DNA of 64,000 nucleotides from Sacculina carcini. Taxonomy: Eukaryota > Arthropoda > Thecostraca > Sacculinidae. The notes under the pieces were generated by a model. The model was not told the DNA's origin and searched no databases. It saw only the letters and a program-made list of their open reading frames with translations. The stretch spans positions 5,474,255 through 5,538,254 of the forward strand of contig OU696585.1 in assembly GCA_916048095.2 (NCBI GenBank), in the 5' to 3' direction. The position numbers and the translations under genes were made by a program. Each line of letters opens with the position of its first letter. The stretch's first letter is position 1. Below, in pieces: positions 4,696 to 51,990 of the stretch.

Positions 4696-4738
<43 letters not shown>
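4694..4738. repeat. (TA)n microsatellite
   Basis: AT run closing the motif array, directly beside the direct repeat that begins at 4742. Confidence 0.95.
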
Positions 4739-4740
<2 letters not shown>

Positions 4741-4741
4741 T

Positions 4742-27559: not shown

Positions 27560-28260
27560 AGGTGTGACAGTCACAATACAATGAAATCACGTCAGATACA
27601 TGCAAATACGTTGAGCGAACTCGAAAAGAGGTATGTGTCATTTGTAGCCCTGGTTGACGGCCGGTATGCTGTCAGGAGACGGCACATGAGTTCAACACCG
27701 ATCATATTCTCATTATATGTGCCAGTGAGATGTGATTGTTTCACCTTTGTGGAGCCAATACATCTCGCTTGCCGAGTTGTCTCCTCTATAGGTTTGGGCA
27801 GTCAGTGATATCGACAATGGTATTTTGTCATTTGATCTCATACATGTCCATCACACCGGTAGCCAAAGCAGCCGTTTGGTGTTTTTTTTAATGCGGCGCT
27901 GAATTGAATGGATTTGGACGCACCACCTGACCTTGCTTCCAATATGATGCCAGTCGCATTGATGTTTACAACGAATGCCTTTAGCAGGGTTCGTGAAGTA
28001 AACAAATTATCAAATGAAAATTCATGTTTAGTAGATTATGAGGGGACATGAATAGCCCGAACTATTTTTTCAACAACTATTGTACTCCAGTGGAGATGTT
28101 TATAGCATTTCTAATTATAATCGTAGGTCTACGACCACCAGACATACAGGCACGGGAATATACTTTTCGCGAGTGTACGTTGCTATACATGGAAAGTGCT
28201 CCGGGCATGTTTCTGTTGAGAATGTACATTTGTTCATTTGTTCCCACTGGTTAGTATTGG
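27560..28260 (-). pseudogene. piggyBac-type transposase remnant
   Basis: Scattered over three minus frames. The order is a degraded region near 28250-28080, a DN-FTS-LL-like block (28013-27985), NINATGI with a GGASKSIQFSAALKKT block (about 27960-27900), GCFGYRCDGH and KWQNTIVDI, then YNENMIGVELMCRLLTAYRP (about 27715-27655). These correspond to the piggyBac DDE domain: DNFFTS, ATGT-R-NR, K---RG, W-D---V, and YN--MGGVD--D---S-YR. The GVD Asp is Glu here. Many frameshifts; no TTAA-flanked ends identified. Confidence 0.7.
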
Positions 28261-28670
28261 ATATTGGACATTGAATTGCTCTCAAGCCCTCTACGTACTA
28301 ACTCTATCGTGAATTGTCTTAATGTTTTGATTCAAGACTAGCGAATCTGTTTTAAGAAGACAAAGGGAATAAATTAACATTTAGTCACTTTTTAGGCATC
28401 ATTTTTAAGTACCTACTGGAAATTAAAATTACGTTTTTTGAAGACAATTTTTCTACAATTTATTATTTCTCAAATGTAAATATATTACCTTCAGATCAAA
28501 TTAGAACTCGTTCTCTACAAAAACAAATTGTATTTAAAAAGCGCCACTTAAGAGTCTATACTCCCTCAGAGGCGCTATGAACACACATAAATAACACAAG
28601 CATACAAATAGATATATACACAAGTGCAATACAATATTGTCAAATAAGCAATTAGAACAATAGAGCAAAT
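28261..28670. other. intronic sequence without clear features
   Basis: AT-rich; nothing recognised before the target duplication at 28671. Confidence 0.4.
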
Positions 28671-28675
28671 GACAG

Positions 28676-28928
28676 TGTAGTGTCGGTCGCGTTAATAATT
28701 CCACTGATCACGCATGAATTACTCACTCGATCACAACGCACATCTTTATTATAACACAACACGAACACTGTAATTAACTCATTTAATTTACCACCTCACA
28801 ACACCAACGCACACTATCAAGTCCCAACGATGACTGATGACTTTGATCGTCATCGCGATAGCCAACATATCCCAAAGGTACACACCACGACATCTCTTGG
28901 AGGAATATGTAACTACAGCTTCGCTACA
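28676..28928 (-). repeat. inverted LTR on the gag side
   Basis: LTR in minus orientation, so its U5 end faces outward. The two bases following it (tc) also match the complement of the two bases before the right LTR, so the inverted repeat runs 2 bp into the former interior. No usual primer-binding site follows: tctggcctacatatg comes next. Confidence 0.85.
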
Positions 28929-28989
28929 TCTGGCCTACATATGCGGCGGTAGCTTCATCCTGATGTTGCCTTCGCTGGCGAAATCGGAA

Positions 28990-29430
28990 TCGCTCAGCAA
29001 TCACATTTGGTTTCGCAGCGAGAAAAAGCACTTTTGTTGCATTGCGTTGGAGCTGAGGCACAGCGCATCTACCGCTCGCTACCACCTACACCAAAACTAG
29101 CCGGTGAGGACGATTACGACCACACAATGCGTGTCATTCAAGCGTTTTTCGTTCCGAAACCAAATGTGATTGCTGAGCGATTCCGATTTCGCCAGCGAAG
29201 GCAACATCAGGATGAAGCTACCGCCGCATATGTCGCCGCTCTAAGATCATGCGCCACTCATTGCAAGTTCGGTGATCTCGAAGACGAATTTATTCGTGAA
29301 CAAGTGGTCGAGGCCACAAACCAGCCGAGGTTAAGGGAAAAATTCCTACAAGACCCAGATCTCACGTTGCAAAAAATTGCTGATACAGGCGGAGGCCGTC
29401 GAACGCTGGCAAGAAGACGTCCAAGTCATG
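28990..29430 (+). pseudogene. gypsy gag capsid part, N-terminus missing
   Basis: Reads QREKALLLHCVGAEAQRIYR, then SLPPTPK and, after ~60 residues, KFGDLEDEFIREQVVE and LREKFLQDPDLTLQ, a standard gypsy Gag core. Only ~60 bp separate it from the left LTR, so the usual Gag N-terminus and 5' leader are gone. A one-base slip near 29380 moves the frame to that of the knuckle-protease-integrase part. Confidence 0.75.
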
Positions 29431-31173
29431 GCATCAGCTGAACATGCTGCTGCATCACCAGCTGCACAGGTGAACCGCGTCATGCAACATCCTCAGCACA
29501 CAAAAAGAGGCGGAGGAGGGACGAACAAGTCTAAATGCAGTCGATGTGGACGCATTCACTCACCAGGCACCAGAGAATGTCCAGCTAGAGACAGTAAGTG
29601 CAACCATTGCGCAAAAATCGGACATTGGTCTAATGTGTGCAGGTCAAAGAAACCTGAGCATCGATCTAAGGAGGTGAAAGCAGTAGAAATACTATCATGC
29701 AGCGCTGAAAAAATCAACAAAAAGAAACTGATGTGCGACATAAAGCTGTCAACAAACGGTAAATCAGCTAGTGTACCTATGATGGTAGACACAGGAGCAT
29801 CGGTGACTCTGATCAGTTTAGATGCAGCAAGATTGCAGCAGCAATGTTTCAAAGGAACACCTGTACAGAAGAGTGAGTCAAAATTGTTCGGAGTATCGGG
29901 AAAGTCACTTCCGGTGATGGGTACCATCAAGGTCAAGGCCGAATTTCAAGGTCGATCCGCAACGAGTGACATCTTCATCATCAAATCATTATCATCTGAT
30001 GCATTGATGGGACTTGACCTTATGCAAGCGCTGGGTGTCAAAATTGACTCAGCAGCAGGATATATATTCTCAGTTCAAGAGTGTCCAAGCTGTGAGACTT
30101 CCGACAGGGTCTTGTGTGGTAAGGCTCGAATAGCTCCACTGTAGGAAGTGCCGCTACCCGAAAAGACAAGGGAAAAAGTGGGTATTGACGTGATAGGCCC
30201 AATCAACGCAGCTCCGCAGTCAAACCGCTACGCAATAACTATGGTTGACTACAGAACAAAGTGGGCAGAGGTTGCGTTGACGTCTACCGTAACATCCACC
30301 ATCGTGATTGATTTCATCAAGAAAATCGCCGCTAGAGAAGGTTTCCCTGATGTGATAGTTTCCGACAATGGAACACCATTCGTGAGCACGGAATTCGAGG
30401 ACTATCTCACCCGACGTGCTATCAAACATCACAAATCAGCAGTATACTGGCCCAGAGGAAATTCAGTCGTTGAAAGTTTCAACCGCACGCTGAAGCAGTG
30501 GTTGCTGAATTGGGACTAGTCCATCAGTCTCAGTGATCACGTGAGGCAACGGCTCGCCCTCTACCGCTCAGCACCACACAGTGCTACGGGATCTTCCCCA
30601 TCAGAGCTGCTGCACGGTAGGACTATGAGGCTCAACCTTCCAGTGGTCGAAGAAAAACCACCACTAGTTATGCCGGAGGAGGTTAACCGTATGCAATCCA
30701 GGAGAAACAAAACGGCTTACGACTCAAGGTTCGGCGTTAAACCGTCACAGATCACCGAAGGGCAATGTGTCTACGTCAAGAAGCCGGGTCATGTTGTCAA
30801 GGGTTCCAGTCGTTTCATAGGTCCTCTGAACGTCAGACGGAGAGTCGGAAAGTGGACGTTCAAGTTGTCCGACGGGAGTGTTCGTAACGCCGCCCATCTG
30901 GCACCAGCCGGCGCGTCGTGCACTGACCGAGAAGATACAGCTGATCGGTCGGCTAGGCCACAGACAGATTACGACGGGGCCCTGCCGATGAACGGCGGAG
31001 GTGTTACAGAACGCGAGAATCAATTGATCGGAGATCAGTCGGCGGACGCCAACGTGGACGAGAGAGACGTCAATACCTCTTCGCAGAGAGATAAACCACT
31101 CGATCGCGGGTTAGTGCAGCTGCAGCCATCTCGTGGAGGACGTTGTCGTTGGCTACCCCGACGACTTGATTAA
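29377..31173 (+). pseudogene. gag zinc knuckles, protease and integrase in one frame, RT absent
   Basis: A single frame with two in-frame TAG codons (30142, 30520) encodes two zinc knuckles (CSRCGRIHSPGTREC, CNHCAKIGHWSNVC), an aspartic protease (MVDTGASVTLISL, ALMGLDLMQALG) and then directly the second half of the integrase zinc-binding domain (CPSCETSDRVL). The integrase core follows, with GIDVIGPI, VIVSDNGTPF and YWPRGNSVVESFNRT (Asp, Asp, Glu intact), and an SH3-like C-terminal domain. Protease joins integrase without a frame break at ~30080, so RT, RNase H and the HH half of the zinc domain were removed cleanly. Confidence 0.8.
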
Positions 31174-31184
31174 CGCGAGGAGGA

Positions 31185-31437
31185 TGTAGCGAAGCTGTAG
31201 TTACATATTCCTCAAAGAGATGTCGTGGTGTGTACCTTTGGGATATGTTGACTATCGCGATGACGATCAAGGTCATCAGTCATCGTTGGGACTTAATTGT
31301 GTGCGTTGGTGTTGAGAGGTGGTAAATTAAATGAGTTAATTACAGTGTTCGTGTTGTGTTATAATAAAGACGTGCGTTGTGATCGAGTGAGTAATTCATG
31401 CGTGATCAGTGGAATTATTAACGCGACCGACACTACA
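31185..31437 (+). repeat. right LTR of the inverted-LTR unit
   Basis: TGTAG...CTACA, 253 bp, preceded by a purine tract (gcgaggagga) as expected for a 3' LTR on the + strand. Contains ataataaag at about 31361, a possible polyadenylation signal. Confidence 0.85.
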
Positions 31438-31663
31438 GACAGTATCTTTGACTCCATTTAGCATACTATAACAAAATTAAACAATTAGCAATCATGCCAA
31501 GTACGTTGAAATCTACCCGCTGATAATAATATTATAGCGCAAATATATATTTGAACGCCACAAATAATTATTCAAGTGCCCGCCTACGAGTTGAAGAGAG
31601 GTATACATATATTACCGTGTGGGGACATTGGCAAAATGAAGATACTGTTAGGTTTTTGCTCAT

Positions 31664-31964
31664 TGTAGTGATATTGCGAGCATTAGTCATAGATGAATAA
31701 TGTGTCGCTAGATGTCGCAGCCAGTGTAGAACGAACGATCCCACATGACACATGATCCAAGGGGTGGCCTTGCCTTTGGCAAGGAGAGAATATTGAGCAG
31801 TATGCGTTGGGCAGTGTTTGAGTCGTGGTCCCACTCCAATCGTAGTGACATATGTGTGTTTCATTGTGTACAATTTGTGTTCATTGGATTTGTGTAATCT
31901 TTGGCGTGTTGTAAACTTGAGTGGTGCTTAAAAAATCGTCCACCCAAACGTGGCGCAGCCGATC
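31664..31964 (+). promoter_or_regulatory. 5' LTR and primer-binding site
   Basis: The LTR starts TGTAGTGAT and ends cacccaaacg (the 3' copy ends aaaca, so the last base is mutated). The primer site tggcgcagccgatc follows immediately. The 3' LTR has ttaataaatc where the 5' copy has ttaaaaaatc, so the likely polyadenylation signal survives only in the 3' copy. Confidence 0.8.
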
Positions 31965-32910
31965 AGTGAGTCTGCCTCCAGTGCAGAAACACTTGTGATT
32001 TTCGCAAGCACATGGACTGGAAAGTTATCACCGCCAAGCAAATTGGACCTCAGCGTTGACCGAGGAGACTCATTCACGATTTGGAGAGATCGGTGGCAAG
32101 ATTATTATCTTCTATCAGGCCTCGGTAGTCAGCCTGCAGCCACCCAAATGGCAGTTCTTCGAACATGTCTCAGTGACGACACACTGCGCGCTGTCAAAAA
32201 CTTAAATCTGTCCACACAAGACAGCGGAGACGTGCACGCCGTTTTAAAAGCGTTGGCCACATATGCCAGGGGACAGATAAACGAAGTGATTGAGCGAAAA
32301 AAATTCAACTGCCGTCGTCAACAGCCAGGCGAGGTTTTCGAAGATTTCTTGTTGGGCCTGAGAGAACTCAGCAATACATGCAATTTTTGCACTTCGTGCA
32401 AGGACAGTTTGATTCGAGATCGAATTGTCGTCGGTATACGTGACCCTGGCACTGTCAAGAAACTTTGCAGTGTGAAAAAGCTCCATCTTCCTACGTGCAT
32501 AGATATCTGTCGCAGCGAGGAAGCAGCAAATCGCGACATGTCCATTTTGACACACGAGGAGAGTTGCACAGCTCGAGTGAGCGCAGGCCGTCTGACTCAC
32601 AGACCCAGTAGCCCAAAATCACACGTGCATAGATATCTGTCGCAGCGAGGAAGCAGCAAATCGCGACATGTCCATTTTGACACACGAGGAGAGTTGCACA
32701 GCTCGAGTGAGCGCAGGCCGTCTGACTCACAGACCCAGTAGCCCAAAATCACACCAGGCGCAGCAACAGTGTGGTAGATGCGGTCGTCAACACACGAGGG
32801 AGCAAAAATGTCCCGCATCTGGGGCTAAATGTCGTGCATGCGGAAAACATGGACATTTTGCAACAGTGTGCCGATCGCCAAAGCAGCAGAGGCACGACAC
32901 CCGCAGCTGA
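31951..32910 (+). pseudogene. gag of the 31.7-36.4 kb gypsy element
   Basis: Capsid-like region (FTIWRDRWQDYYLLSGLG, MAVLRTCLSDDTLRAV, FEDFLLGLRELSNTC, IRDRIVVGIRD) followed, after a duplicated segment, by two knuckles: CGRCGRQHTREQKC and CRACGKHGHFATVC. The open frame runs without an ATG from the primer site, so the true start is lost or non-AUG. A 130-bp tandem duplication (32493-32752) shifts frame and separates capsid from knuckles. Confidence 0.8.
32493..32752 (+). repeat. 130-bp tandem duplication inside gag
   Basis: 32493-32622 and 32623-32752 are near-identical copies starting acgtgcatagatatctgtcg. As 130 is not a multiple of 3, the second copy is read out of frame (ending in a stop at ~32741) and the knuckle domain lies in the shifted frame. 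Confidence 0.95.
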
Positions 32911-32970
32911 ACACCAGTATCTGCGGCTGTAATTTCAGCTGTCTCAGCACTCAGCGCTCCTCGCATCACT

Positions 32971-35085
32971 GTGCTAGTCGACGGCAAAGTCAACATCGAG
33001 GCGTTACCCGACTCGGGCGCAGACATTTCGGTTGCCGGTCGTGACGTGTTAGTTCAGATCGACGATGTCAACAATTTGCTGCAGAGCAAAGACGAACCTC
33101 AGTCGGCCGATGGTTCTCCCATGCGGGTCATTGGTGTGCTACCCACGCGTGTGACTCTGGGTAACCGAGAAGTTGACATCAACTTACACATACTGGAGGG
33201 AGTATCTGGCATGTTACTGTCATGGCAGGTATGTCGTGCGTTAAATATCTTGCCACAAAACTATCCCAGTCAAATAGTAAGCAGCATTGCAAGCACAAAA
33301 GCTATGCCCACTAACACAGATCAGAAGACAAACGGGGAAAACATCTTTTCTGAGTTTGAAGAGGTATTCTCAGACAAAGTACAAGTCATGCCTGGCGAGA
33401 CGTTTCGCATCCATCTAGCAGATGACGCCGAGCCTCACAGTATTTCAGCGCCTCGCCGAATCCCACTACCTTTGCGCAAAGGATTGAAAGATGAGTTGGA
33501 CAACCTAACATCTCAAGGTATCATAACAGCTGTGTCACAACCAACCGAGTGGTGTTCCCCAGTTGTCGTCACACCAAAGAAATCGGGAGGTGTACGATTA
33601 TGTGTGGATCTCACCAAACTGAACCGTTGCGTTCGGCGTGAGGCGTACCAGTCCGACACTCCAGCCGAATGCGTCGCGTCAATCGTCGGTGACAACGCCA
33701 GATTTTTTGCGGTGTTTGATGCGACCAAGGGATACCACCAGTGCCCTCTGGCACCAGAAAGCAGAAAGCTGACAACGTTCATGACTCTGTTTGGCCGCTA
33801 TATGCTTACGCGCGCACCATACGGAATTTCATCGATCTCTGATCATTATAATCGGCGCATGGACGAGCGTTTCGTGGGAATACCAGGCATGCGTAGGCTG
33901 GTAGATGATGTTATCATTTACGGTCGTGACGAGGCAGAGCTTCAAGCATGTGTGCACTTATTCCTGACACGCTGCCGTGAAAAACGTGTCACACTCAACC
34001 GTGAAAAAGCCCAATACATGGTGAAAGAATGTAAGTTTGCTGGATTTCTAGTCGGAGAAAATGGATATAAAGTCGATCCTGCTCTACACGAGGCTATCGC
34101 ACGATTTCCATCACCCAAGATCACCAGCGACCTACGGTCATTTTTCGGTCTATGCAACCAGCTAGGTGCATTTTTAGAAGAACTCGCTGAACATTCGGCT
34201 CCATTGCGTGGGTTGTTGAGTGCCAAAAATCACTTCCTGTGGGATGAAGCACATGAAGCATCGTTCAAAAATGCACGTGAAGCTCTCGCATCGTCCAAAA
34301 CATTGATGTTTTTCAACCCTGAAGCGCCTACGATCCGTCACACCGATGCTAGTCGACTTAACGGGCTCGGGTTCGTGCTACAGCAGAGACATAGAGACGG
34401 TACAATGTACATCATTCAATGTGTATCTCGTTTCATCAGTGATACTGAGCAGCGATATGCAGCCATCGAGCTTGAGCTGTTAGCTGTGTGCTGGGCGTTC
34501 AAAAAGGGCAATTTATTCCTTTCTGGACTCAAGCATTTTGAGGTGCACGTCGATCATCGTCCACTCGTGCCCATTCTCAACTCCAAATCGGTAGTTGAGC
34601 TGGATAATCCGCGACTTCAACGACTCCGTTTGAAATTGGAATGCCTTGGGCCCTTCAAAGCTCATTAGGTGCCGGGAAGGCGCCATTTAGCCGCAGACGC
34701 GCTGTCGCGGAAACCGATTGAACAAGCACCATGTGAGGTGGACGAATGTGCGGACATGCAGCCAATAATAGCATCTATTGTGAGCTCAGAGGGCATATCG
34801 GACAGACAGCTGGAGAAAGTTCGATACGAGACTGTTAGAGACACAGAACTACAAAAGTTGAAGGGTCAAATCAAAACAGGTTTTCCGGAAAGCATCCATG
34901 ACGTTGACATGTCTATTCGTCGCTACTGGAACGTTCGTGAGAAGCTTTCATTTGACGAAGATTTAATCCTATATGGTCGTCGGTTGGTTATCCCAACAGC
35001 CATGAGAAAAGAAATTCTTCATGAATTACATGCCAGTCACGCAGGCAAGGAGCGAACGAAACAAAGGGCTCGTGCGATTGTGTAA
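32971..35085 (+). pseudogene. gypsy pol: protease, reverse transcriptase, RNase H
   Basis: Protease motif LPDSGADISVAG (Ser in place of the usual Thr); RT blocks RLCVDLTKLNRCVRRE, FDATKGYHQCPLAPES, LTRAPYGISSISDHYNR and RLVDDVIIYGRDE (Val-Asp-Asp); RNase H with IRHTDASRLNGLGFVL, YAAIELELLAVCWAFKK and VHVDHRPL. In-frame stops are a TAG at 34666, just before the conserved ADALSR block, and a TAA at 35086 in the integrase zinc domain. Otherwise open over ~700 codons, so the damage is recent. Confidence 0.9.
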
Positions 35086-36114
35086 TGGCCAGGCATTGAT
35101 GTAGACATCGACAACAGAACCAAGTCTTGTGAACAGTGTCAAAAATACCTGCCAAGCCAAACGAAGGAGACCATACTGCATCACGACCAGCCAACTCGAC
35201 CGTTTGAGCTGATGTCAGTTGACATTGGGGAATACGGAAACCACAAGTTTGTGGTTGCTGTCGACCATATTTCGGGCTGGAAATTTGTGAACGATTTGGG
35301 CTCTACGGCAGTGACGAGACAACTGCTGGACACGTTTCGGACAATTTTCTGCATGGTCGGTGTTCCAACAACAATATATACAGACGGTGGTCCACAGCTC
35401 ACCTCGGGAGATTTCTACAAGTTTGGCGAGAAGTGGATGCTCCGACATGTACGTTCATCTCCTCATTTTCCCCAATCAAATGGGAGGGCAGAGGCTGCGG
35501 TTAAGTCCGCCAAAGCACTGATAAAGAAGTGCTGGAACGTCGATAAGTCTTGTCTCCAAGAAGATGATTGGTGCAAAGGAATTTTTCAGTTGCGAAACAC
35601 TCCGGGACCCGACGGCAGGTCGCCCGCGGAAATTCTTCACGGCAGACCAGTTCGAGACATGTTTCCCGCTCACAGACGAAATTTCTGCGTGGAGTGGCAA
35701 AAGTGTTCTGATGAAGCCGAACGAAAAGCAGCATCTCGGCAACAAAAGCAAGATAAGAGATACAACGTCACGGCCAAAGACCTACCAGAACTCTCTGCTG
35801 GTGTTCATGTAGCGGTTCAGCACCACGAAACAGGTCTGTGGGAGTGTCATGGAGTGGTGATCGAGACGTTGCCCCTTCGGCGCTATCTTATCAAGCTCGA
35901 CAGCGGACGAGTGGTGGCTCGCAACCGACGCCACTTGCGACGTCGATATGGGCACGCCGCGCCGCCTGGTGCACACGCAGCTGACGCGACTGGGACGGAC
36001 AATCAGCGTTCGAGAAACAGCCGACAACAGCCTGGTCGCCAACAAGAGATACACCTCCGCCGCTCCACTCGTGCAAGACGTCGCCCAGAAAGATTGATTG
36101 AAGCCATCGAATAA
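35086..36114 (+). pseudogene. gypsy pol: integrase
   Basis: WPGIDVDIDNRTKSCEQCQK (zinc domain), FELMSVDIGEYGNHKFVVAV (first Asp), TIYTDGGPQLTSGDFYKF (second Asp), SPHFPQSNGRAEAAVKSAK (Glu), then a C-terminal domain with VHVAVQHHETGLW and RHLRRRYG. Ends in a basic tail at 36114, 25 bp before the 3' LTR. Inserts cDNA with a 5-bp stagger, in agreement with the CTCAT duplication. Confidence 0.9.
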
Positions 36115-36138
36115 CTTCGATAACTAGGGGGGGGGGCG

Positions 36139-36425
36139 TGTTGTGATATTGCGAGCATTAGTCATAGATAAATAATGTGTCGCTAGATATCGCAGCCAGT
36201 GTAGAACGGACCATCCCACATGACACATGATCCAAGGGACGGCCTTGCCTTTGGCAAGGAGAGAATATTGAGCAGTGTGCGTTGGGCAGTGTTTGAGTCG
36301 TTGTCCCACTCCAATCGTAGTGACATATGTGTGTTTCATTGTGTACAATTTGTGTTCATTGGATTTGTGTAATCTTTGGCGTGTTGTAAACTTGAGTGGT
36401 GCTTAATAAATCGTCCACCCAAACA
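36139..36425 (+). repeat. 3' LTR of the gypsy element
   Basis: 287 bp, direct repeat of 31664-31950 with about ten differences by eye. Preceded by the polypurine tract aggggggggggcg. Confidence 0.9.
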
Positions 36426-36663
36426 CTCATATCCAGACAAGACATGCAAATTGTGCAGTCATAGAAAACACCTGAGGGCCATTTAACCATTCTGTATTTA
36501 CGTCAAGTGACTATTTGACAGATTTTCTTTAGCATTTCCTATAATTTCACCATCTTGAATGGACCATACAAATTAACTTATTCATGAAGATATACCAAGT
36601 GACTATATTCAATAACCAAGTGATCACATTTGACGAATGTATTTTCATTCTGGCTTCTCGCAG

Positions 36664-36868
36664 GTTATTATGCCACATGCGAAATATTCGCCGCTTCCAT
36701 TGCGGTCGCTGTTGTGATCGTCGGCATAATTATATACAGAGTTATTCGAAGGAAGCACTCTGATGAAGAACCTCCAGCGGAGAACAATGACGGAGAAGCA
36801 GAAGAACCAGAAACGGCTCCTCCATCTGCGTGCAATGCTGTTCGTCTTGAGTCGTTACATCCGGAACC
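36664..36868 (+). CDS. host receptor gene exon E: transmembrane helix and juxtamembrane tail
   Basis: 205-bp exon, acceptor ctggcttctcgcag, donor gtaagt, phase 1 in and 2 out. Reads GYYATCEIFAASIAVAVVIV, then GIIIYRVIRRKHSDEEPPAE, and an acidic Pro-rich tail to LHPEP. A ~20-residue hydrophobic helix is followed by Arg-Arg-Lys, which by the positive-inside rule puts the lectin-like part outside and the C-terminus in the cytoplasm (type I). Entry phase matches exon D across the 10.9-kb transposon-filled intron. Confidence 0.65.
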
Positions 36869-36885
36869 GTAAGTCTTGAAGTTCT

Positions 36886-37312
36886 TGTAGGCGAAACACA
36901 AAACAAAAATATATTACAGACAGGCGCGCGTGGGCATCACTTCCCCACGCGCGCCTACAAGACGTCACACCACTCCCGACAGCACCTGTTACACGACTCC
37001 AAGCTCACACCGTGACACACGGGAGCACACACAAACACACACACAAAAACACACGCACAGGCCTCAATCCACCGAAACAACCAATCAGCGGCGAGCCGGT
37101 CACTCGCTCGCCGCCGCGGAGCATCAACACTTGACAAACACACATATACACATACACACAGCGACACAGCTATACACATTTGCTCACACACTCTCGCACG
37201 CAATACGCAATTCCACTATACACGGTCACATATAGGCACACTAACATGCTCACGCACTATCTCACACAATATCTCACACACACTCTCTCTCATTGCACAC
37301 GATCACACCACA
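36886..37312 (-). mobile_element. solo LTR 12 bp inside a host intron
   Basis: TGTAGGCG...CCACA, with the 5-bp duplication GTTCT on both sides (36881-36885, 37313-37317). Same family as the complete element at 38163-39675 (caggcgcgcgtgggcatcac, ccaatcagcggcgagccgg, cacacgatcacaccaca). The duplication starts only 12 bases after the exon E donor site. Confidence 0.85.
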
Positions 37313-38162: not shown

Positions 38163-39675
38163 TGTAATAGAAATTCAACAATCTAAATTATATTCAGACA
38201 GGCGCGCGTGGTCATCACTACCCCACGCGCGCCTACAAGAGGTCACACTCCAACCGCACCACAAACACGACTCCACGCTCACACCGTGACACATGGGAGC
38301 ACACACACCCACGCACAGCCCTCACATCCACCGCCACAACCGATCAGCGGCGAGCCGATTAATCACTCGCCGCCGCGGGGCATGCATATTCGACAAACGC
38401 ATACACATACACAAACACACACAAAACCGAAACAACTAGACACACACACAACTCGCTCACACACTCTCTCACGCCATACACAATTAAACCTACACGATCA
38501 CACAGAGACAGTAAGACGTTGACACACTCACACACAATCCCTCACACACACTCTCTCTCACTGCACACGATCACACCACACCTCCACCTGTTTTTGAAGA
38601 AACATACATCAACAAAAGAACAAACAATTGAAAACGTAAAAAGTAAACCAGTAAAAATGAACCAATAAAAACATAACTCGACGACGGCATCCACCAGACG
38701 CGCGCACCTTTGCTGCGGCGAAGCACAACACGGCAGGCCCCAGCATCCACCACACTCTCGCCTCGCCCGTGCTCTTCAGTGCTCAGTCGCAGCCTGCCGT
38801 CTTCTTCATCACCGGCTGCCGCGACAGGGCACAACACTTCGACCCCAGCACCCACTATGCTCCCGTCGACTCCAGTGCTCTTCAGCACCCTGCCGCATAC
38901 AGCCGTGACGTCGCCGCACACGAAGACTACGCCGTCGTCGTCGATCGTTTCTTCCTACGGCCTCAGCAGCACATTCCTCTCACCTGACCTCCAGCACCAG
39001 CAGTCTCCACCAACAATATTCCATTTGCCCGGTGACGAGTCCAACACCAGTGCAGGCGGGACGACGAGCAACCCTCAGCCGCAGCTCCTGCGCTGCCTCC
39101 CGCCGGCACCATGCTCTCCTGCCGTCCCCCTGCACACCAGCCTCACAAGCCGCCGAGCACCTCCGCCATATCCTCCAGGTCGCTGCTAATACTGGAGGGC
39201 ACTGTCTCCGCTGCTGAAGCCGGGTCACAGACAAACAATACTTTCAAAACAAAAAGGCCGAAATAGCTTGTAACACAAATTCAACAATCTAAATTATATT
39301 CAGACAGGCGCGCGTGGGCATCACTACCCCACGCGCGCCTACAAGATGTCATACTCCAACCGCACCACGAACACGACTCCACGCTTACACCGTGACACAC
39401 GGGAGCACACACACCCACGCACAGCCCTCACATCCACCGCCACAACCAATCAGCGGCGAGCCGGTTAATCGCTCGCCACCGCCGCCACCGCATGCATACT
39501 CGACAAACGCATACACATACACACACACCGAAACAACTACACACACTCGCTCACACACTCTCGCACGCCATACTCAATTAAACCATACTCGATCACACAT
39601 ACACAATATGACGTTGACACACTCAGACACAATCCCTCACACACACTCTCTCTCACTGCACACGATCACACCACA
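38163..39675 (-). mobile_element. complete small non-autonomous LTR element (TRIM/LARD-like)
   Basis: LTRs 38163-38580 and 39269-39675 (418 and 407 bp), target duplication ATATC (38158-38162, 39676-39680). On the minus strand: LTR (TGTGGTGTG...GTTACA), then the primer-like site AGCTATTTCGGC, a 688-bp GC-rich interior without gag or pol motifs, a purine tract (acaggtggagg) and the second LTR. Depends on proteins from another element; the element at 44122-49252 shares its primer-site type and LTR ends, so it is a candidate helper. In host intron E-F. Confidence 0.85.
39257..39268 (-). promoter_or_regulatory. primer-binding-like site complementary to the tRNA-Phe 5' end
   Basis: The + strand reads GCCGAAATAGCT directly before the LTR base at 39269. 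This equals nucleotides 1-12 of metazoan tRNA-Phe (GCCGAAATAGCTC...). A usual site would instead be complementary to the tRNA 3' end and start TGG on the element strand. Confidence 0.65.
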
Positions 39676-40171: not shown

Positions 40172-40845
40172 AAATTAAGTGCAAATTGAGTTTCACACTC
40201 TAAAAAGGCCGACATTAAACATTGTTTTGCTCCACGATACAATGATATTTAACGATGCCTTCAATCTGGATCCTAGGGAACTAAGAGAATAAAAGCAAGA
40301 TTGAAGGAAAATCAGCAAAACAACGTAGAGTTGTACTTAGTCATCATCATATATTTGGTCGCAGTGTTTTGAAGAGCATACAAACAACACACCCCACAAC
40401 ACACACCACAGCACACCCCACAACACACCCCACAACACACCCCACGACGCTCGCACTTTTACAATTCGAGTAGGCAGAAAAACAGCGTTGTGCAGAGGCA
40501 CCAGTCCAGGAGGATGATCGCGCACAACGCTGTTTTTCTCCCTACTCGAATTGTAAAAGTGCGAGCGTCGTGGGGTGTGTTGTGGGGTGTGTTGTGGGTT
40601 GTGTTGTGGTGTGTGTTGTGGGGTGTGCTGTTTGTATGCTCTTCAAAACACTGCGACCAAATATATGATGACGACGAATTACAACTCTACGTTGTTTTGC
40701 TGATTTTCCTTCAATCTTGCTTTTATTCTCTTAGTTCCCTAAGATCCAGATTGATGGCATCATTAAATATCGTTGTATCGTTGAGTAAAACAATGTTTAA
40801 TGTCGGACTTTTTAGAGTGTGGAACTCAATTTGCACTTATAATTT
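40172..40845. repeat. ~670-bp palindrome with ~322-bp arms and a 28-nt loop
   Basis: 40172-40493 and 40522-40845 are near-perfect reverse complements. The arms include a cacaccccacaa minisatellite, an aagagaataaaagcaagattgaagg block and ttttacaattcgagta-g. The loop is 40494-40521. It lies 60 bp after the stop codon of exon F. The block aactaagagaataaaagcaag in each arm resembles the end of exon F (aactgagagaataacagcaag). Transcribed, it would form a very long hairpin. Confidence 0.9.
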
Positions 40846-43052: not shown

Positions 43053-43560
43053 ACATATTATCCACAAATGCCCGCATACTCTCATACTCTGCAATAGGGC
43101 AATATGTTCACCTCGGCCAGTATAGTGTCAAAGGCGTACCAAGTGCGATAGTGCGACTGCGGTTTGTGGCCAATATGTTCACTTTTCATCATAGCGAAAT
43201 TTCAGTGGTTTTCAACACAACACACGAGTTTATACACTACAGTTAGCTAGCACATGACGTACTGTCTGGTTATTGATTAGGTTAGGTTAGGTTGGTCAGG
43301 TTAGGTCAAGTTTGTTTAGGTCAGCTTACTGAACCAATAACCACACACAGTGCGTTAGGTGCTAGTCGTCTGTTGTATACAAACTCGTGCGTTGCGTTGA
43401 AAACCACTGAAATTTCGCTATGGTGAAAAGTGAAAATATTGTCCACAAGCCGCAGTCACATTCACCGCACTTGGTACGCCTTTGACACTACGCTGGCCGA
43501 GGTGAACATATTGCCCTATTGCAGAGTATGTGAGTATACAAGTGTTTGTGGCTAATATGC
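43053..43560. repeat. fold-back element with ~225-bp arms and a TTAGG-rich loop
   Basis: Left arm ~43053-43278 and right arm ~43335-43560 are reverse complements (gcaatagggcaatatgttca / tgaacatattgccctattgc; gtcaaaggcgtaccaagtgcg / its complement; ggttattg / caataacc). The loop contains gattaggttaggttaggttgg. No coding capacity. MITE-like fold-back element; no target duplication recognised. Confidence 0.85.
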
Positions 43561-44116: not shown

Positions 44117-44503
44117 AATACTGTAATCAAGCAAAAGAAACAACGGGGCAAAGCCCTCTCACCTTCGCGCAGGTAAACCGCGCACAACGACGAGAATTCG
44201 TCCACTCGAGCAGAAATATTCTCGAACACACGGCAACGATGCTTATCACGCGCAGGCCACCAACCGAATGACGCTCGACCGCTCGCAAAGCCAGCTTCAC
44301 ACACGCCAGCTGATACACGCCTCCGGCACTAGGCTCAAATCGCGGCCAATCAGCGCGCAGCAACGTGCGACGTCATACCTCGCACCAGTCGACTCAAGTG
44401 AGCCGCTATGACGTCACACCGCACGCCACTCGACAACAACGCCACATCTCCCCCAGCTTTTCACCTGAAAGCTCACAACAAACACGCTTGCAAACACGCA
44501 CGG

Positions 44504-47500
44504 TTAAACTTCATCATCGGATAGACACACGTACTCGTTTAACCATGCCGGCGGTCGACGTCTCCTCGTTGACCGCCTCGGCTGCTCGACTGCAGCCTCA
44601 TCCTCGACTCTCTCAGCCGCGACGCCCTCTCCGACATTCTCTCGAGCAGTATGCACACTCACGCCCTCTGAGGGCTCACCAGGTTCCTGCTCCACAGACA
44701 CACGGTCCGCATCCACGCCCTCGCCAGTAGCCAGTCGCTCAGGTGGCAGGCTGTCAGGTGTTCTGTCACCGCCGGGACTATCGGCCGCCTCGTCCCGTCC
44801 GCCATCACCGCTCAGGTCCAAGCTACACCGGGTGGCTCCACCGGGTGGCTCCACATCTCCGCGATTGCCGGTCGCATCCACATCCCAACCGCCGCTGGTC
44901 GGTTCCACGTCGCCATGAGTGCCGGTCTCGTCTGTGGCTCCACTATGGCCGGCACAGCGACGCTTGCGCAGGTCGCGCACATGGCGCGGCATGCCATTTA
45001 CGCACACAACGTGCTGTGAGACGACCCTGGTCACCTTCCCGAGGGTCCACGGCGTTGTACATGACGGGATCGGCGGTTTCACCCACACCTCGTCACCAAC
45101 GGCAAACGCTGCTGTCTGGTCATCAGCGTCCCTGCGGCCGGTCTCAAATGGAAGACGCCACTCGTATCTGAAAATACACCTCGAGGGAATAGTGCTCACC
45201 TGAGTCTCTTTGCGCGGCGTAACGTTGTACCAGAACGTCGCCTCCTCCGGGGAAATATGTCCCCTCGCTGCGATCCTTTTGATCGTACGGTGATTTCGCT
45301 CCACGATCCCGTTACCGCCCGGGGCGTATGCGGCTCGGAATCGCAAAGAAATGCACCACTCGTCGGCGAACTGCTCCATCGCCGCCGACCGGAACGCCGT
45401 AGAGTTGTCCAGTAACAGCTCCTCAAACGGCCCACGCTCAATCACAATCTGCCGCAGCTGAGCTATAATGCACAACGCCGTCTCATTCGGCAATCTGCGC
45501 CATACGGCAAGACGTGATGGACCACAATCCACCATCGACAGGTAAACGCCGGCATCGTAATGAGTGACGTCCGCTGCCACTCGATACCAGTCCCTGTCCA
45601 CGGCCAGACTACCCTGACCTACGAGATTCTCCTCTCTCACCGCTGGATCGATACGTTGACAAGCCTCGCATCCAGCTATCTCCGCCTTCACATGGGCTCT
45701 CGTCAAATCACTCCGCAATTGTTGACCCAGGTACAGCGTCCTCTCGACACCTAAATGATGGGGCAGATGAGCCGCCCAAACGGTGTCCTTAATGCTCTTC
45801 TTCGTAGCAATAGCTGCTGATATTGCCACCTCCTCCTCACCAGCGTCACGATGAACAAGCCACTTCTTGGCCACCCTGGTCATCTGATCAGCTTTATTCT
45901 CCACAGTCGTGACAAACCGGAGAGAAACTGTCAGGCCATGCTCGGCGATCGTCTCCTTAATCACCGCCAGTCGGCGCTTTACCAGCATCTCGGCAGAACC
46001 TTTAGTGCGGACACGGTTGCGCCCCTCGACAGTGCTGTCCATCCAACTAAGCACTGTCCTCGAGTCTGTCGCGACGGTAAACGTCTTGAACCCCCACGAA
46101 ATCGCCATATTGATGCCACGACCGACTGCCTCCAGTTCGGACACATTAATGTGTAGAACGTCGGTCTTCTTACGGAGCCAAGTAGCATCCTCAACGATGC
46201 AGCCGTCCACCTCGACCACCACGCCAAGCGCCAACGTGCTCGCGTCAGTCCATACAGTGACGTCTCCAGCTGCGTTCACGTCCCATCGACCCTTTACCGG
46301 GTCCGCCTTCTGAACACGCTGCAACAGCTCAGACACAAGCACACACACAACATTTTCCACCGGGTTATCCCACGACCCGCCACACCCCAACCGTTTCAAA
46401 AAACTGCAATGGGGGCGTAACCACCCGGCAACGGGGTAATGGCCGACTAGACGACCACATACGGAGAACAACCCACGCTTGGTCAGCCCTGTCAATTCGG
46501 GTGCAGCGTCACGAAGAGCTGTCCCTCTCGACATATTCAACCACCCATCGGGTCCCTTCCTCAGAGCAATTCCCAATAATCGACCCCCATCTAGGCCCTC
46601 CGGCTCCTTAGTCTCAAAGCCATACCTTCGCAGATGCTCCCGAAGCTGCTGCACGCTCACATCGGACGTCCTCACGATGATATCGTCGACATAATGATCT
46701 GTCGCCTTTCGCACCTTCTCGTCCAATGACAGGACCTTTCGCAGAATCAGCGTCATTATTCTTGGTGCACATGACAGGCCGAAGCCCAGCCGCGTCAACG
46801 CATAATGCACACCATTATACCTCACGACCTGATACTTCCACAGATCTCGGCTCACGTGAATCTGCAGGTACGCCGACTTGAGATCAACTACCTTGATCTC
46901 CCCCTGCCATTGCCTCCACTCTCTGATCCTGTCAGCACACACTGACACACCGTCATCTCCTGTGTGACACTCGACAAAGCCGTTCAGCTCACGGTAATCC
47001 ATAACAGGACGAACTTTGTCTTTCGTCGGCTGTACGACGGCCAACAGCGGGATGATCCCCTTTACTGGGCCGTGCCATGTGATTAACCAGCCTTTCTCGA
47101 TCCAGCTCCGGATCTCGGCATTGTACCTCTCGCTCACTCCGGGAGCTCTCGTACATCTGTACTCCGCCACGCTGTTCTGTAGCTGGTCCGGCTCTTTGTC
47201 AGACCACCGCCAGCTCACCGTCCATCGGCCCTCAGCGAATGACGCTACGAAGTCCTTGTCGACAACTTCCAGCGGCTGCGGACTATCCGTGGAACCTGCC
47301 AACATAAACCTCACACACTTCGTCGATTTATTAGACACACTCTTACGCGCCGGTGCACGACAGCACCCCTCGGGGTAAGGTTTCCCCCACTCAACGGTGT
47401 ATTTAGAGTCAACACCCCTTTTCACTGTCACGCCTCCCATATGGTCGATAACATCGTTGCCCAGGAGGCACTCCACCCCAAGGTTTTCTAATCCCTTAAC

Positions 47501-47971
47501 TACGAGCCCGGGAACTCTAAAACAGTGTCCCTGCAGCCCTATTACTACGTCACAGGACTTCGTCTCATGAGAAGTCCTACCATCCGCTGTAATCAACGGT
47601 CGTCCCCGACGGGGAAGTGAACCCGCCACCACCCGTGCACTAACAATTGTGCACTCACTTCCCGTGTCAACCAGACACCGGGAGCAACGACCGTTGAGAA
47701 CAGCTTCAACGACCGGCATACGACGCGAAGTCAATACACCGGCCGTCCCTCGAATCGCCCGGCGGGCCCGACGCACCAAATGTGCTCCGCTGATGAGTCC
47801 ACGCGCAGAGCAGGGACTCACCGTCGCCCCTTTACAGGGGCCGCCGCTTAATTGCGGTCGACTTCCATGTCGGAGGACGCTGCGCCCCGTGCTGCGCCCT
47901 CCGCATGAAAATGCGAGCTCGTCCGAGCTCGCGAGCGGCGTGACGTCGACGTCGACGCCGGCTCCTCGCAA
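44504..47971 (-). CDS. pol: protease, reverse transcriptase, RNase H, integrase
   Basis: Up to 1155 codons, uninterrupted. Protease CLVDTGSECTIV (~residue 105); RT with VRPVMDYRELNGFVE, KVVDLKSAYLQIHVSRDLW, ALTRLGFGLSCAPRIM and HYVDDIIVR; RNase H with VWTDASTLALGVVVE, NVSELEAVGRGINMA and TVATDSRTVLSWMDST; integrase with HLPHHLGVERTLYLG, CEACQRIDP, VAADVTHYDAGVYL (Asp), LLLDNSTAFRSAAM (Asp) and GGNGIVERNHRTIKR (Glu), then a Gly/Pro/Tyr-type C-terminal domain and an acidic, Gly-rich tail. All catalytic residues appear intact. The RT resembles the fragment at 6275-6500. Expressed with Gag, probably by -1 frameshift. Confidence 0.92.
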   Translation of the reverse strand: MRGAGVDVDVTPLASSDELAFSCGGRSTGRSVLRHGSRPQLSGGPCKGATVSPCSARGLISGAHLVRRARRAIRGTAGVLTSRRMPVVEAVLNGRCSRCLVDTGSECTIVSARVVAGSLPRRGRPLITADGRTSHETKSCDVVIGLQGHCFRVPGLVVKGLENLGVECLLGNDVIDHMGGVTVKRGVDSKYTVEWGKPYPEGCCRAPARKSVSNKSTKCVRFMLAGSTDSPQPLEVVDKDFVASFAEGRWTVSWRWSDKEPDQLQNSVAEYRCTRAPGVSERYNAEIRSWIEKGWLITWHGPVKGIIPLLAVVQPTKDKVRPVMDYRELNGFVECHTGDDGVSVCADRIREWRQWQGEIKVVDLKSAYLQIHVSRDLWKYQVVRYNGVHYALTRLGFGLSCAPRIMTLILRKVLSLDEKVRKATDHYVDDIIVRTSDVSVQQLREHLRRYGFETKEPEGLDGGRLLGIALRKGPDGWLNMSRGTALRDAAPELTGLTKRGLFSVCGRLVGHYPVAGWLRPHCSFLKRLGCGGSWDNPVENVVCVLVSELLQRVQKADPVKGRWDVNAAGDVTVWTDASTLALGVVVEVDGCIVEDATWLRKKTDVLHINVSELEAVGRGINMAISWGFKTFTVATDSRTVLSWMDSTVEGRNRVRTKGSAEMLVKRRLAVIKETIAEHGLTVSLRFVTTVENKADQMTRVAKKWLVHRDAGEEEVAISAAIATKKSIKDTVWAAHLPHHLGVERTLYLGQQLRSDLTRAHVKAEIAGCEACQRIDPAVREENLVGQGSLAVDRDWYRVAADVTHYDAGVYLSMVDCGPSRLAVWRRLPNETALCIIAQLRQIVIERGPFEELLLDNSTAFRSAAMEQFADEWCISLRFRAAYAPGGNGIVERNHRTIKRIAARGHISPEEATFWYNVTPRKETQVSTIPSRCIFRYEWRLPFETGRRDADDQTAAFAVGDEVWVKPPIPSCTTPWTLGKVTRVVSQHVVCVNGMPRHVRDLRKRRCAGHSGATDETGTHGDVEPTSGGWDVDATGNRGDVEPPGGATRCSLDLSGDGGRDEAADSPGGDRTPDSLPPERLATGEGVDADRVSVEQEPGEPSEGVSVHTARENVGEGVAAERVEDEAAVEQPRRSTRRRRPPAWLNEYVCLSDDEV

Positions 47972-48912
47972 TCACGAGCGAAATGCCCGTGCTTGCCACA
48001 CCGGTAGCATTGCGCTCCCGGGCACTCGCGGACCAGATGGTCGCCGCCACATCGGTAGCAGCGGAGCGTCCGGCGCGCAGAAGAGCGCGCAGAAGAGCGC
48101 TCCGAACGGCCCGCCCACCGAGACACAGAGCCGTCTCGCTCGTCCGACGCTTGAGGACCAGGAGAGCGGTCCCTCGAGCTGCTCGCTACTTGGGCGTAGC
48201 TGACTCGCTGCCTAGATGCAGCCACCACCCCAGATGGGCGGTTTCTAGCTGCAGCAGCCCTACGCGCACCAATTCTGGCGCGCACCGCCGACAGCACGCT
48301 GTCGAACTCGGAGGTGTAGGCCCCGTCTTTCGCCATAGCCCACTCATAGATTGAGTCGGGTAAGCCCTCATAAAACTTGACGCGGAACGCCAAGCACTCG
48401 GGTGTTAACCCTACACGGCGACCTAGACGCTCTAGGTCGTCCACAAAGGCGTCCACTGACTCGCCAGATCGAAGCTGACGAGTCGAGAAACGCCTCCACG
48501 CCTCTTGGCGAGGCACGCCAAACTCGGCGACCAGCGTGGCTTTCACCACGGCCCACTGTGAGGCGTCGCCCACGAGCATGCGCCGGTAAAGCCGGCGCGC
48601 GCTCCCATCCAGCATATGGTCGACCATTTCGCAAGGGTCGACCTGCTGGACACGGCATAGCCGCTCAAAGTCGGCCAGCCACTCAGTGACGTCAAGGGTG
48701 ACGTCACCACCGAAACGCGGTAGAGCCCGCCCTATCCTGTCAAGGATCGGCCCTCGGGCCTGCATTAAGATGTTGGCCAACTGGCCAACATCTACCACGG
48801 GTCCCGCGGCCCGCTGCTCGGGTCTCTGACCCTCCTGACCGAAGTCATCGGATTCACTACCGGAACCCCCTTCGACAAACTCACGTTTGCCCCCGCCAAC
48901 GGCCTCAGCCAT
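47848..48912 (-). CDS. gag of the 44-49 kb element
   Basis: Start taken at MAEAVGGGKREFVEGG (48912), three bases after the primer-like site. The frame is also open upstream through the LTR to 49110. About 354 residues: acidic N-terminus, capsid-like helices (DVTEWLADFERLCRVQQVDP, LYRRMLVGDASQWAVVKATL, FSTRQLRSGESVDAFVDDLE, FRVKFYEGLPDSIYEWAM), an Arg/Ser-rich linker and two zinc knuckles, CYRCGGDHLVREC and CYRCGKHGHFARDC. Packages element RNA. Overlaps pol by 124 bp in a frame that would need a -1 shift. Confidence 0.9.
   Translation of the reverse strand: MAEAVGGGKREFVEGGSGSESDDFGQEGQRPEQRAAGPVVDVGQLANILMQARGPILDRIGRALPRFGGDVTLDVTEWLADFERLCRVQQVDPCEMVDHMLDGSARRLYRRMLVGDASQWAVVKATLVAEFGVPRQEAWRRFSTRQLRSGESVDAFVDDLERLGRRVGLTPECLAFRVKFYEGLPDSIYEWAMAKDGAYTSEFDSVLSAVRARIGARRAAAARNRPSGVVAASRQRVSYAQVASSSRDRSPGPQASDERDGSVSRWAGRSERSSARSSARRTLRCYRCGGDHLVRECPGAQCYRCGKHGHFARDCEEPASTSTSRRSRARTSSHFHAEGAARGAASSDMEVDRN
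47913..47932 (-). promoter_or_regulatory. strong stem-loop in the gag/pol overlap
   Basis: gcgagctc and gagctcgc form a perfect 8-bp GC-rich stem around gtcc, inside the gag-pol overlap. A possible frameshift stimulator, but I see no canonical slippery heptamer at the expected distance upstream, so its role is unproven. Confidence 0.35.
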
Positions 48913-48915
48913 AAA

Positions 48916-48927
48916 GCCGAAATAGCT
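48916..48927 (-). promoter_or_regulatory. primer-binding-like site complementary to the tRNA-Phe 5' end
   Basis: The + strand GCCGAAATAGCT abuts the first LTR base (48928) with no gap and equals nucleotides 1-12 of metazoan tRNA-Phe. The gag ATG (48912-48910) follows only three bases later on the element strand. The next LTR base is T where tRNA-Phe has C, so pairing stops at 12 nt. Confidence 0.65.
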
Positions 48928-49257
48928 TGTAATCAAGCAAAAGAAACAACGGGGCAAAGCCCTCTCACCTTCGCGCAGGTAAACCGCGCACAACGACGAG
49001 AATTCGTCCACTCGAGCAGAAATATTCTCGAACACACGGCAACGATGCTTACAACGCACAGGCCACCAACCGAATGACGCTCGACCGCTCGCAAAGCCAG
49101 CTTCACACACGCCAGCTGATACACGCCTCCGGCACTAGGCTCAAATCGCGGCCAATCAGCGCGCAGCAACGTGCGACGTCATACCTCGCACCAGTCGACT
49201 CAAGTGAGCCGCTATGACGTCACACCGCACGCCACTCGACAACAACGCCACAAATAC

Positions 49258-50195
49258 CATGGTTAAAAAATCAGTTTTAGTTAAGTGGTTTAACCAGCCG
49301 CTTATACCAGCAGGCTACTTGCTATACAAAAAAGTATTTCAACGCACATCAATCAAATCTATCTTCCATAGAGACTGTACTAGAAAGTATTGTTTTATTA
49401 AAAAAGCGTTAGTTTAAATAAACGTTTGTCAAAAAACAATTGTGGCGTACCCCTTGTGCGTTGAATAAAAAACACCAGACTTGGTACACAACTTGGTATT
49501 GTTTCGTGATCGTTCTTGTTGTTGTTGTTGTTAGTCCAAACTGAAATTAAACAAAAGGTGGAACCTCGATTAAGCCCAGCCAAATCTCAAATTAAGCCCA
49601 TATACTAACCAAATAAGTAAATATCCACAAACGAGACAAATCACATAACAAACGAGACAAATCACACACATAACATCAAACGACTCACGATTTCTGGCGT
49701 TCTCTAGGATGTCAATATCCCACAAATTCTCTATGATCTCCAATATCTCACAAATTCTCTACGATCTCCAATATCCCACAAATTCTCTAGGATCTCCAAT
49801 ATCTCACAAATTCTCGAAGGTATAACTCTCAGGTGTTAGCTCTCCACGGTTCAAACAGTGAAAAGGAAGACGCCAAGCGGCGCTGCCGTTGGTGTATACA
49901 ATCTCAACGTAGCAACAATGCCGTTGGTATATATAAACAACAATAAACGTAGAGCTAAATTTTAACGAAAATTAAGATGATACATAATTTCTGTGGGTGT
50001 AACGCCCCGCCCGCCGTGCGAGCAGCACTTCCATTATCGTTACACCCTTAGGTTTCGATGCAACTCACGAATATATAAACGCACAATACAAAATACACTC
50101 GCAAACCCAACCAAAGCATAGTACACTCGTGTAGTGTACCGAGAAGGACGAACAATATCAATGCACAACATTTCCCGCGAACAAGATTAAACGAC
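49258..50195. other. no gene; 28-bp tandem repeat
   Basis: Four copies of a ~28-bp unit (atctccaatatcccacaaat plus tctct) at 49709-49818. An inverted gcccgccgtgcg block at 50007-50030 recalls the motif family at 3491-4695. Confidence 0.6.
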
Positions 50196-50394
50196 CAGAT
50201 AGTACATTGTTCGCGGTTCCAGTGCCACAACAACATGCTGGTACACGTCCAGCAGAACAACAACTCCCCGGTGCGCCAAAATCATCACAACAATTATCCG
50301 GTGACACAGCAACGCCACAACACATTCATTCTCGATCAGGCCAACGCATCAGGCCACCTGTTCGTTTCTCGCCCTGATCTGATGAGGGGGCTCC
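50196..50394 (+). pseudogene. last part of a CsRn1-like pol, from a tandem copy
   Basis: Matches 61619-61817 (end of the pol at 58357-61800 plus its polypurine region) almost base for base and continues into the LTR at 50395. It is the remnant of a neighbouring copy that shares its 3' LTR with the 5' LTR of the element on the right. Confidence 0.85.
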
Positions 50395-51211
50395 TGTGGC
50401 GTACACACTTGTTCACACACACATGTTTCTTTTGTATTGATTGTCGCTGTATTATTTTAGTTTATGCGTTGCATGTTTATGTTGTGCGTATTAAGCATGC
50501 GTTATGTGTGTGTGCGTATCTTTGCGTTATATGCGTTGCGTGTTTGTTTCATTGCATAAATTAATTTCATTGTATAAATTTACACACTTCGCAATATGCT
50601 TGTATGTATGTTCGCACCGTGCACACCACCGGATGTGTTATTTTCGTCGCCTATTTGCGCCGTGTGTTTATGTCGCCGTCTGGCTATGTCATCGCCGTCT
50701 GGCTATGTCGTGTTTGTGTCGCGCTGTATATCCGCGCCGCCTGTGTGCTTGTGTCTGTCTGTCTGATCCGCCTGTGTGCGCTGCCCATTCTCCACGCAAG
50801 CCGGCGGAATTGCTACTGTGTGTTCACACCACCCACGACGATGGTAGTCCAGCTATTTCCCGCGACAATTCACACGACTGTTTGCTCAGACGTCGCACGG
50901 CACGTTCCAGACGGTCACGTGACCGGTGTCCTACATGGAGTGAAGGGATTCCGGCTGGTGCTAGACATAGGTGGATTCCGGCTGGTGTTGGACAAGTCAG
51001 TCGAGAATAGTGCGTGCTGTCACACAGTGCTAGAGTTGTTCGCTCGCTTCATTGTGTTCCCGCGACTTAGTCGTACTCCCCGCGTATTCGTGTCCAGCCG
51101 CTGCGGGTATCGTATCTTATTGTATTGTTTCGTAATTGTAATTATGTATTAATGTTATGTAAATGTGTGAATGTAATATATAGCTGATTTACTAATTGTT
51201 TTCTATGCATG
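50395..51211 (+). repeat. LTR of CsRn1-like element 2, part 1
   Basis: Starts TGTGGCGTAC and matches 61818-62634. It is cut at ...ctatgcatg by insertion of element 1 and resumes at 56995-57024 (cttaacc...ttaaca), giving 847 bp in all, the same as the 3' LTR. Confidence 0.9.
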
Positions 51212-51970: not shown

Positions 51971-51983
51971 TGGTGACCCCGAC
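51971..51983 (+). promoter_or_regulatory. primer-binding site, tRNA-Trp type
   Basis: tggtgaccccgac, one base after the LTR end. The same site occurs at 57027-57039 in element 2. Confidence 0.85.
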
Positions 51984-51990
51984 AACCGGC

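Follow-up and report, generated by a model that had tools for sequence, protein, structure and literature searches.

The window analysed here is a 64,000-nucleotide stretch of Sacculina carcini contig OU696585.1, and its positions 28671-31442 hold a gypsy-derived unit in which the two long terminal repeats (LTRs) are inverted with respect to each other. The LTR arms of the unit proper (28676-31437) lie at 28676-28928 and 31185-31437; both are 253 bp long and they are mutual reverse complements with seven differences. The unit starts with TGTAG and ends with CTACA, both outer ends are U5 ends, and GACAG stands directly outside both ends (28671-28675 and 31438-31442). A sequence-only reading of the window had described these inverted ends, termini and flanking repeats and had taken both outer ends for U5 ends, all of which is borne out. 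The inverted repeat reaches two bases beyond the LTRs, TC at 28929-28930 on the left and GA at 31183-31184 on the right, and thus comprises 255 nt with seven mismatches (28676-28930 against 31183-31437). The left LTR lies on the minus strand and corresponds, together with its TC, to the reverse complement of positions 4615-4869 in the ordinary copy L010. The right LTR lies on the plus strand in sense orientation. Both have U5 outward.

Three features had escaped that reading: a second inverted pair of 89 nt in gag (28937-29025 and 29145-29233), an internal deletion of 1.7 kb with an 8-bp repeat at its joint, and six bases, TGGCCT at 28931-28936, that match neither the polypurine tract (PPT) side nor gag. 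These six bases separate the inverted LTR from an inverted 79-bp copy of gag (28937-29015, minus strand), which is identical to the reverse complement of its source, the sense gag stretch at 29155-29233 (0/79 differences). The gag and protease region in sense follows at 29016-30072, with an RVP match in the open reading frame 29377-30144, and ends at the deletion joint (30073-30080). Beyond the joint lie the integrase region and 3' part (30081-31182, plus strand), in which the frame is broken and the segment 30148-30516 has an rve match, and the PPT GCGAGGAG with its GA (31175-31184, plus strand). In terms of Pfam matches the unit keeps protease (PR) and integrase (IN) and is devoid of reverse transcriptase (RT) and RNase H. 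The PPT of a Ty3/gypsy layout is present beside the right LTR and the primer binding site (PBS) is missing: BLAST finds no counterpart of the leader (L010 554-726) in the unit, where at most 4-6 PBS-like bases are left.

The LTR of the unit has 41 scored matches in the genome (264 Mb, 43 contigs). Five full-length copies (L009-L013) measure 4.57-4.60 kb, have direct LTRs that are 96-99.6% alike and carry a 5-bp target site duplication (TSD) in all five cases. Because the Pfam matches in L010 run in the order PR and RT, RNase H and then the rve integrase core, we assign the parent family to Ty3/gypsy. The unit resembles these copies in its LTR, gag and integrase sequences and in its 5-bp TSD, and it has the TG...CA ends (TGTAG...CTACA) and a duplication (GACAG) within the 4-6 bp typical of Ty3/gypsy elements. 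The ordinary copies differ from the unit in having direct LTRs, a PBS side and 1.7 kb more interior, and in lacking the inverted gag piece.

The internal deletion removed 1,728 bp, including RT and RNase H, at the repeat GTTCAAGA; the frequency of this 8-bp deletion repeat is 1.3e-4. A copy with direct LTRs, L033 (C7:6092495-6098416), has an identical joint and also shares the adjacent variant at 30094. In trees, where supports are mostly low, the unit stands apart from L033: its gag part groups with L009, L013 and L041, and its integrase part with L009, L010, L015 and L045. Since the joint is shared but the unit does not group with L033, the common deletion may reflect either recombination or a deletion that arose twice.

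All four paralogous empty sites that we fetched (L034-L037) carry GACAG once; we chose sites at which the matches to the two flanks abut, and the count covers these four. With GACAG on both sides of the unit and only once in the fetched empty paralogs, the locus reads as one insertion with a 5-bp target duplication. This agrees with the single insertion event proposed in the sequence-only reading, which had named an empty-site allele lacking GACAG, combined with the absence of any other copy, as evidence to the contrary. One of the four, L034, is a segmental duplicate on the same contig with a syntenic empty site. It matches 812 bp of the left flank and 228 bp and 506 bp of the right flank, and the correspondence runs through window positions 27868-28676, 31438-31664 and 36426-36931. 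L034 lacks both the inverted unit and a neighbouring gypsy element at 31664-36424, and the 506-bp stretch is the sequence beyond that neighbouring insertion. The neighbour is a different gypsy element with direct LTRs that starts 221 bp past the right TSD of the unit, and it contains a perfect 132-bp tandem duplication (32493-32754). Its absence from L034 indicates an insertion separate from the inverted unit.

The host site is itself a repeated sequence, and the region lies among segmental duplications. The LTRs of 44122-56991 have 96-100% identical counterparts (several 99-100%) elsewhere on this contig, near 5.32-5.33 and 5.63 Mb, suggesting recent segmental duplications, and direct 1,020-bp repeats, 98.5% alike, surround the LTR element 51211-56991 (50196-62638) in what looks like a nested insertion. 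An assembly error in a duplicated region would have material to work on here, with 99-100% identical copies of the right part of the window elsewhere on the contig and a unit known from assembled sequence alone. Against such an error, the full inverted junction occurs only here among the 40 of 50 candidates scored, the arms have private substitutions, and the TSD and the edges are exact; nor would an inversion made by the assembler create the gag fold-back and the extra bases. We consider this explanation very unlikely.

Both LTRs of the unit have A at position 147, where all 31 other LTRs compared have G (39 other scored LTR matches, minus five partial and three unfetched). The seven differences between the arms are each private to one arm, six to the right and one to the left. 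These variants indicate that both LTRs come from one source, as the single-unit origin proposed earlier implies. Recombination of two neighbouring elements in opposite orientation, with loss of the intervening part, would also leave opposite LTRs; it is at odds with the one TSD common to both ends, with the empty paralogs and with the private LTR variant that the arms share. We reject this explanation, against which the duplication had already been used, as extremely improbable.

The divergence of the LTR arms amounts to 1.4% per branch, and the terminal branches of the unit in FastTree trees of two interior segments are 1.39% and 1.36% long; strictly private changes affect 17 of 2,149 interior sites (0.79%). 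At half this age, the Poisson probability of at least seven differences, calculated by hand, would be about 0.005 at the private rate and about 0.065 at the rate of the tree branch. The arm divergence therefore makes it unlikely that the left LTR is a much later copy of the right one. On a flip in situ it is silent, since the original 5' LTR would retain the age it already had. The rearrangement itself is dated by the gag arms, with 0/79 differences against about two expected at the age of the LTR split, for which the chance is about 0.1.

The second inverted pair is most likely the scar of a fold-back in gag. The inverted and sense pieces overlap exactly in TCG (29013-29015, 3 bp) at the start of a 13-nt joint (29013-29025). 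All mismatches of the 89-nt pair fall within 29016-29025; over this stretch the unit has the sense-strand sequence, with one private base at 29022 as the exception. The 13-nt end pairs with sequence laid down earlier on its own strand, matching 11 of 13 positions in L011, L013 and L014 and 10 of 13 in L010; among 200,000 randomly drawn pairs of positions, one scored 11/13. The loop of this fold-back is 119 nt long, and the strand would turn around in gag, some 170 nt past the 5' LTR. A snap-back during plus-strand synthesis from the PPT had been proposed earlier: the perfect 79-bp inverted copy supports the kind of event and places the fold in gag, not at the PPT.

We also modelled folding of the minus strand. 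For L013 and L014 the 3' end is predicted to pair in the observed register with a probability of 0.10-0.20, and this register is the best partner of the 3' end in five of the six runs on the two copies; for L010 and L011 the observed pairing has a probability of 0.025 or less. Of 12 runs, one includes it in the minimum-energy fold; with different settings it lies inside the minimum-energy fold of L014. At 100 of 400 end points the best partner is equally strong, and the 224-nt fold of L014 is no more stable than its shuffles, 128 of 200 of which are as good. Predicted folding allows the fold-back without singling it out.

The inner edge of the inverted LTR reads TC-TGGC-CT and is followed by gag. 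Ordinary copies have GA at the end of the PPT side, just before U3, and TTTGGC on the PBS side, after the U5 of the 5' LTR, at 12 of 13 edges, with TT at all 13 and TC at none; the label PBS is putative and denotes a TGG two bases after the LTR, not a tRNA match. TCTGGC in the unit hence agrees with the PBS side at five of six positions, and its TC agrees with the PPT-side GA at two of two. Of the 2,240 dinucleotides that the interior of the unit contains, 152 are TC (about 7% by chance), and matches of at least 5/6 to TTTGGC occur at 6 of 2,240 positions. The edge can be read in two ways, which by rough estimate are about equally likely. TC may be the complement of the PPT-side GA, by analogy with Ty3, and TGGCCT a filler. 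Alternatively, T(C)TGGC may be the start of the PBS with one substitution, followed by two bases, with the 5' LTR flipped in place. The former leaves six bases unaccounted for, the latter two bases and one mutation. The joint thus favours neither of them. The significance attached earlier to the matching GA and TC survives weakly, as a two-base match to the PPT side set against the PBS-side match. Comparison with the PPT side and with gag gave no match to 28931-28936, and the join shows no homology.

The Ty3 LTR begins with TG. Since the +1 rG of Ty3 is the first base after the PPT/U3 junction (PMC5371799), plus-strand DNA of Ty3 would start with extra bases ahead of that TG. By analogy, the plus strand of the present family would begin with GATGTAG, and this is exactly where the inverted LTR stops.

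Observed at the locus are one 5-bp TSD with empty sites, two U5 ends, one LTR source, the gag fold-back and the deletion. We think it probable, with moderate confidence, that the unit arose when a Ty3/gypsy element was reverse-transcribed, once, in an aberrant way and the resulting DNA was integrated. Minus-strand synthesis would have proceeded from the U5 end through the 3' LTR, the PPT, integrase and gag, with the 1.7-kb deletion either already in the template or made during this synthesis. In gag, the 3' end of the minus strand would have folded back at the imperfect 13-nt match, primed itself and copied 79 nt of its own strand. The folded end would then have been joined, with the six extra nucleotides, to the 5' end (GA-TGTAG...) of plus-strand strong-stop DNA. 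A second LTR with a U5 end could be supplied in this way, since extra, dead-end plus-strand strong-stop DNA accumulates in Ty3 particles (PMC5371799). Once the folded strand had become double-stranded, the DNA would have a U5 end on each side, and integrase would have inserted it through these two ends. We put aberrant reverse transcription first because integrase alone explains the exact outer LTR edges beside the TSD, edges that a flip would have to hit exactly. The GA at the inner edge is, by analogy with Ty3, also what plus-strand DNA would be expected to leave. On the other side, the PBS-side match appears as well supported as the two-base PPT match, the join has no homology and its filler is untraceable, the gag arms are identical, and the predicted folding is not special.

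The serious rival to aberrant reverse transcription, though a distinctly less likely one, is an ordinary direct-LTR insertion whose own 5' LTR was later flipped by local rearrangement, through two breaks or through serial template switching in repair or replication. The first PBS bases would be kept and the inverted gag piece would replace the leader. The LTR ends (TGTAG/CTACA) offer 5 bp of inverted homology at each edge, TCTGGC agrees with the PBS side at five of six positions, and all rearranged pieces, LTR and gag, originate within about 650 bp of one another in L010. A flip would preserve the TSD, the common LTR variant and the LTR divergence, and the absence of differences between the gag arms is a hint that the event is younger. 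In flies, error-prone repair is documented that uses microhomology and leaves short insertions (PMC11226609). However, both edges of the flip must hit the LTR ends exactly, one of them beside the TSD, and host repair has no reason to do so beyond the 5-bp homology. One substitution is needed at the edge, from TT, present at all 13 ordinary edges, to TC, and the gag piece and its joint require two further switches. We had at first rejected a flip in place and restored it because of the PBS-side match and because LTR dating does not test it; our confidence in aberrant reverse transcription thereby fell from fairly high to moderate. In the sequence-only reading the unit had been inserted as one, already inverted, piece. 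This is likely, but a 5' LTR flipped in place keeps the same TSD.

Alternative end joining has a role in LTR-retrotransposon DNA. Two cDNAs, each providing one U5 end, could have integrated together, with host end joining connecting their other ends, an origin that would give the same outer ends and TSD. Snap-back copies and fillers are possible products of end joining, which the homology-less join at 28931-28936 resembles. Both molecules would have to share one source element to account for the LTR variant, which is possible with two co-packaged RNAs, and on sequence alone such an origin is hard to separate from a single aberrant reverse transcription. We consider it improbable.

The junction between inverted LTR and gag (28880-29100) has one full match in the genome and none of the 52 other matches spans the LTR into gag, with 40 of 50 candidates scored; one of the 52 extends nine bases beyond the LTR, into host sequence beside L009. 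The search for further inverted-LTR copies suggested in the sequence-only reading thus found none beyond the unit among the candidates scored, and on the same count we rejected a moving inverted-LTR family. The DNA-transposon-like outcome proposed there holds for shape only. The unit has the terminal inverted repeats and the TSD of a DNA transposon, but multiple copies were not found among these 40 of 50 candidates, PBS, RT and RNase H are missing, and the LTRs face outward. Because both LTRs point outward, no ordinary transcript should cross the unit. Its sole mobility enzyme is a frame-broken integrase of retroviral type. The unit is probably immobile, the dead-end product of a rare accident.

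The inverted arrangement exceeds chance: among the 41 scored LTR matches of the family, neighbours within 16 kb lie on the same strand in 16 cases, which include pieces of one split LTR, and on opposite strands in one case, the unit. For five LTR families with 206 scored matches (at most 40 candidates scored per search, from 40, 300, 47, 151 and 2,608 first-look candidates), the corresponding numbers are 68 and 4. One of the four opposite pairs is the unit, two represent a single LTR nested in another LTR (C11:4.54 Mb) and the last is a match of 35 bp internal to an LTR. The unit is the only inverted terminal LTR pair among the scored neighbours of the five families. In the nested case on C11 (4542900-4545020), the inner LTR belongs to the 51211 family; it runs opposite to the LTR that surrounds it and has extra sequence to either side. 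Elsewhere in the window, 38163-39675 holds a TRIM-like direct LTR pair (about 418 and 407 bp, 89% alike, TSD ATATC) with little interior, a repeat with 2,608 first-look candidates in the genome. A large near-perfect palindrome lies at 40176-40839 (arms of 318 nt, 95% complementary, with a 28-nt spacer), and two nested inverted-repeat pairs with a short centre lie at 43054-43559 (94 nt at 90% and 117 nt at 85%).

DIRS-type retrotransposons resemble the unit in having inverted terminal repeats. They use a tyrosine recombinase and are not known to produce a TSD, whereas the unit has a retroviral-type integrase core and a 5-bp TSD; Pfam matches of seven scanned open reading frames (E 0.01) include no tyrosine recombinase, and the rve core is found in both the unit and L010. 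A probable precedent, to judge by its title and a citing passage, is the element of Hughes and Coffin 2002, cited for a mechanism of LTR inversion (PMC3625200) and described in the title as a retrovirus-related element resembling a DNA transposon. Like the unit it probably has LTRs as terminal inverted repeats, and it differs in being a human endogenous retrovirus and not a gypsy element. HERV-K124 likewise has inverted LTRs within one locus, but has three LTRs, and the inverted ones are partial; its authors speculate on LTR inversion with template switching and call the mechanism unclear (PMC3625200). Complex LTR elements of Triticeae, for which Sabot and Schulman 2007 (PMC1950507) argue one-piece insertion from the flanking 5-bp TSD and matching outer LTRs, are comparable as one-piece insertions formed by errors of reverse transcription. 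They are attributed to template switching and are unlike the unit in having a third, internal LTR and two core sequences, and a word search of the main text of that article finds no word beginning with "inver". In the literature covered, in part and mostly as titles and openings of abstracts, we recognised no gypsy case with full-length inverted LTRs.

The unit seems to be a rare accident and not a novel type of element, and a comparable one seems to be known from humans. It is improbable that fold-back and strong-stop joining form a repeatable route to LTR units with inverted ends recognised by integrase. If they did, such units would physically link retrotransposons to DNA transposons of the DDE type, and integrase acting on two U5 ends could in principle move them again. 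If the unit was made during reverse transcription, its joints record minus-strand self-priming, the plus-strand start and integration through two U5 ends, steps that are normally invisible. The locus offers a dated natural case, with empty sites, of how errors in gypsy cDNA become insertions, and it shows how an LTR element can come to resemble a DNA transposon in shape alone.
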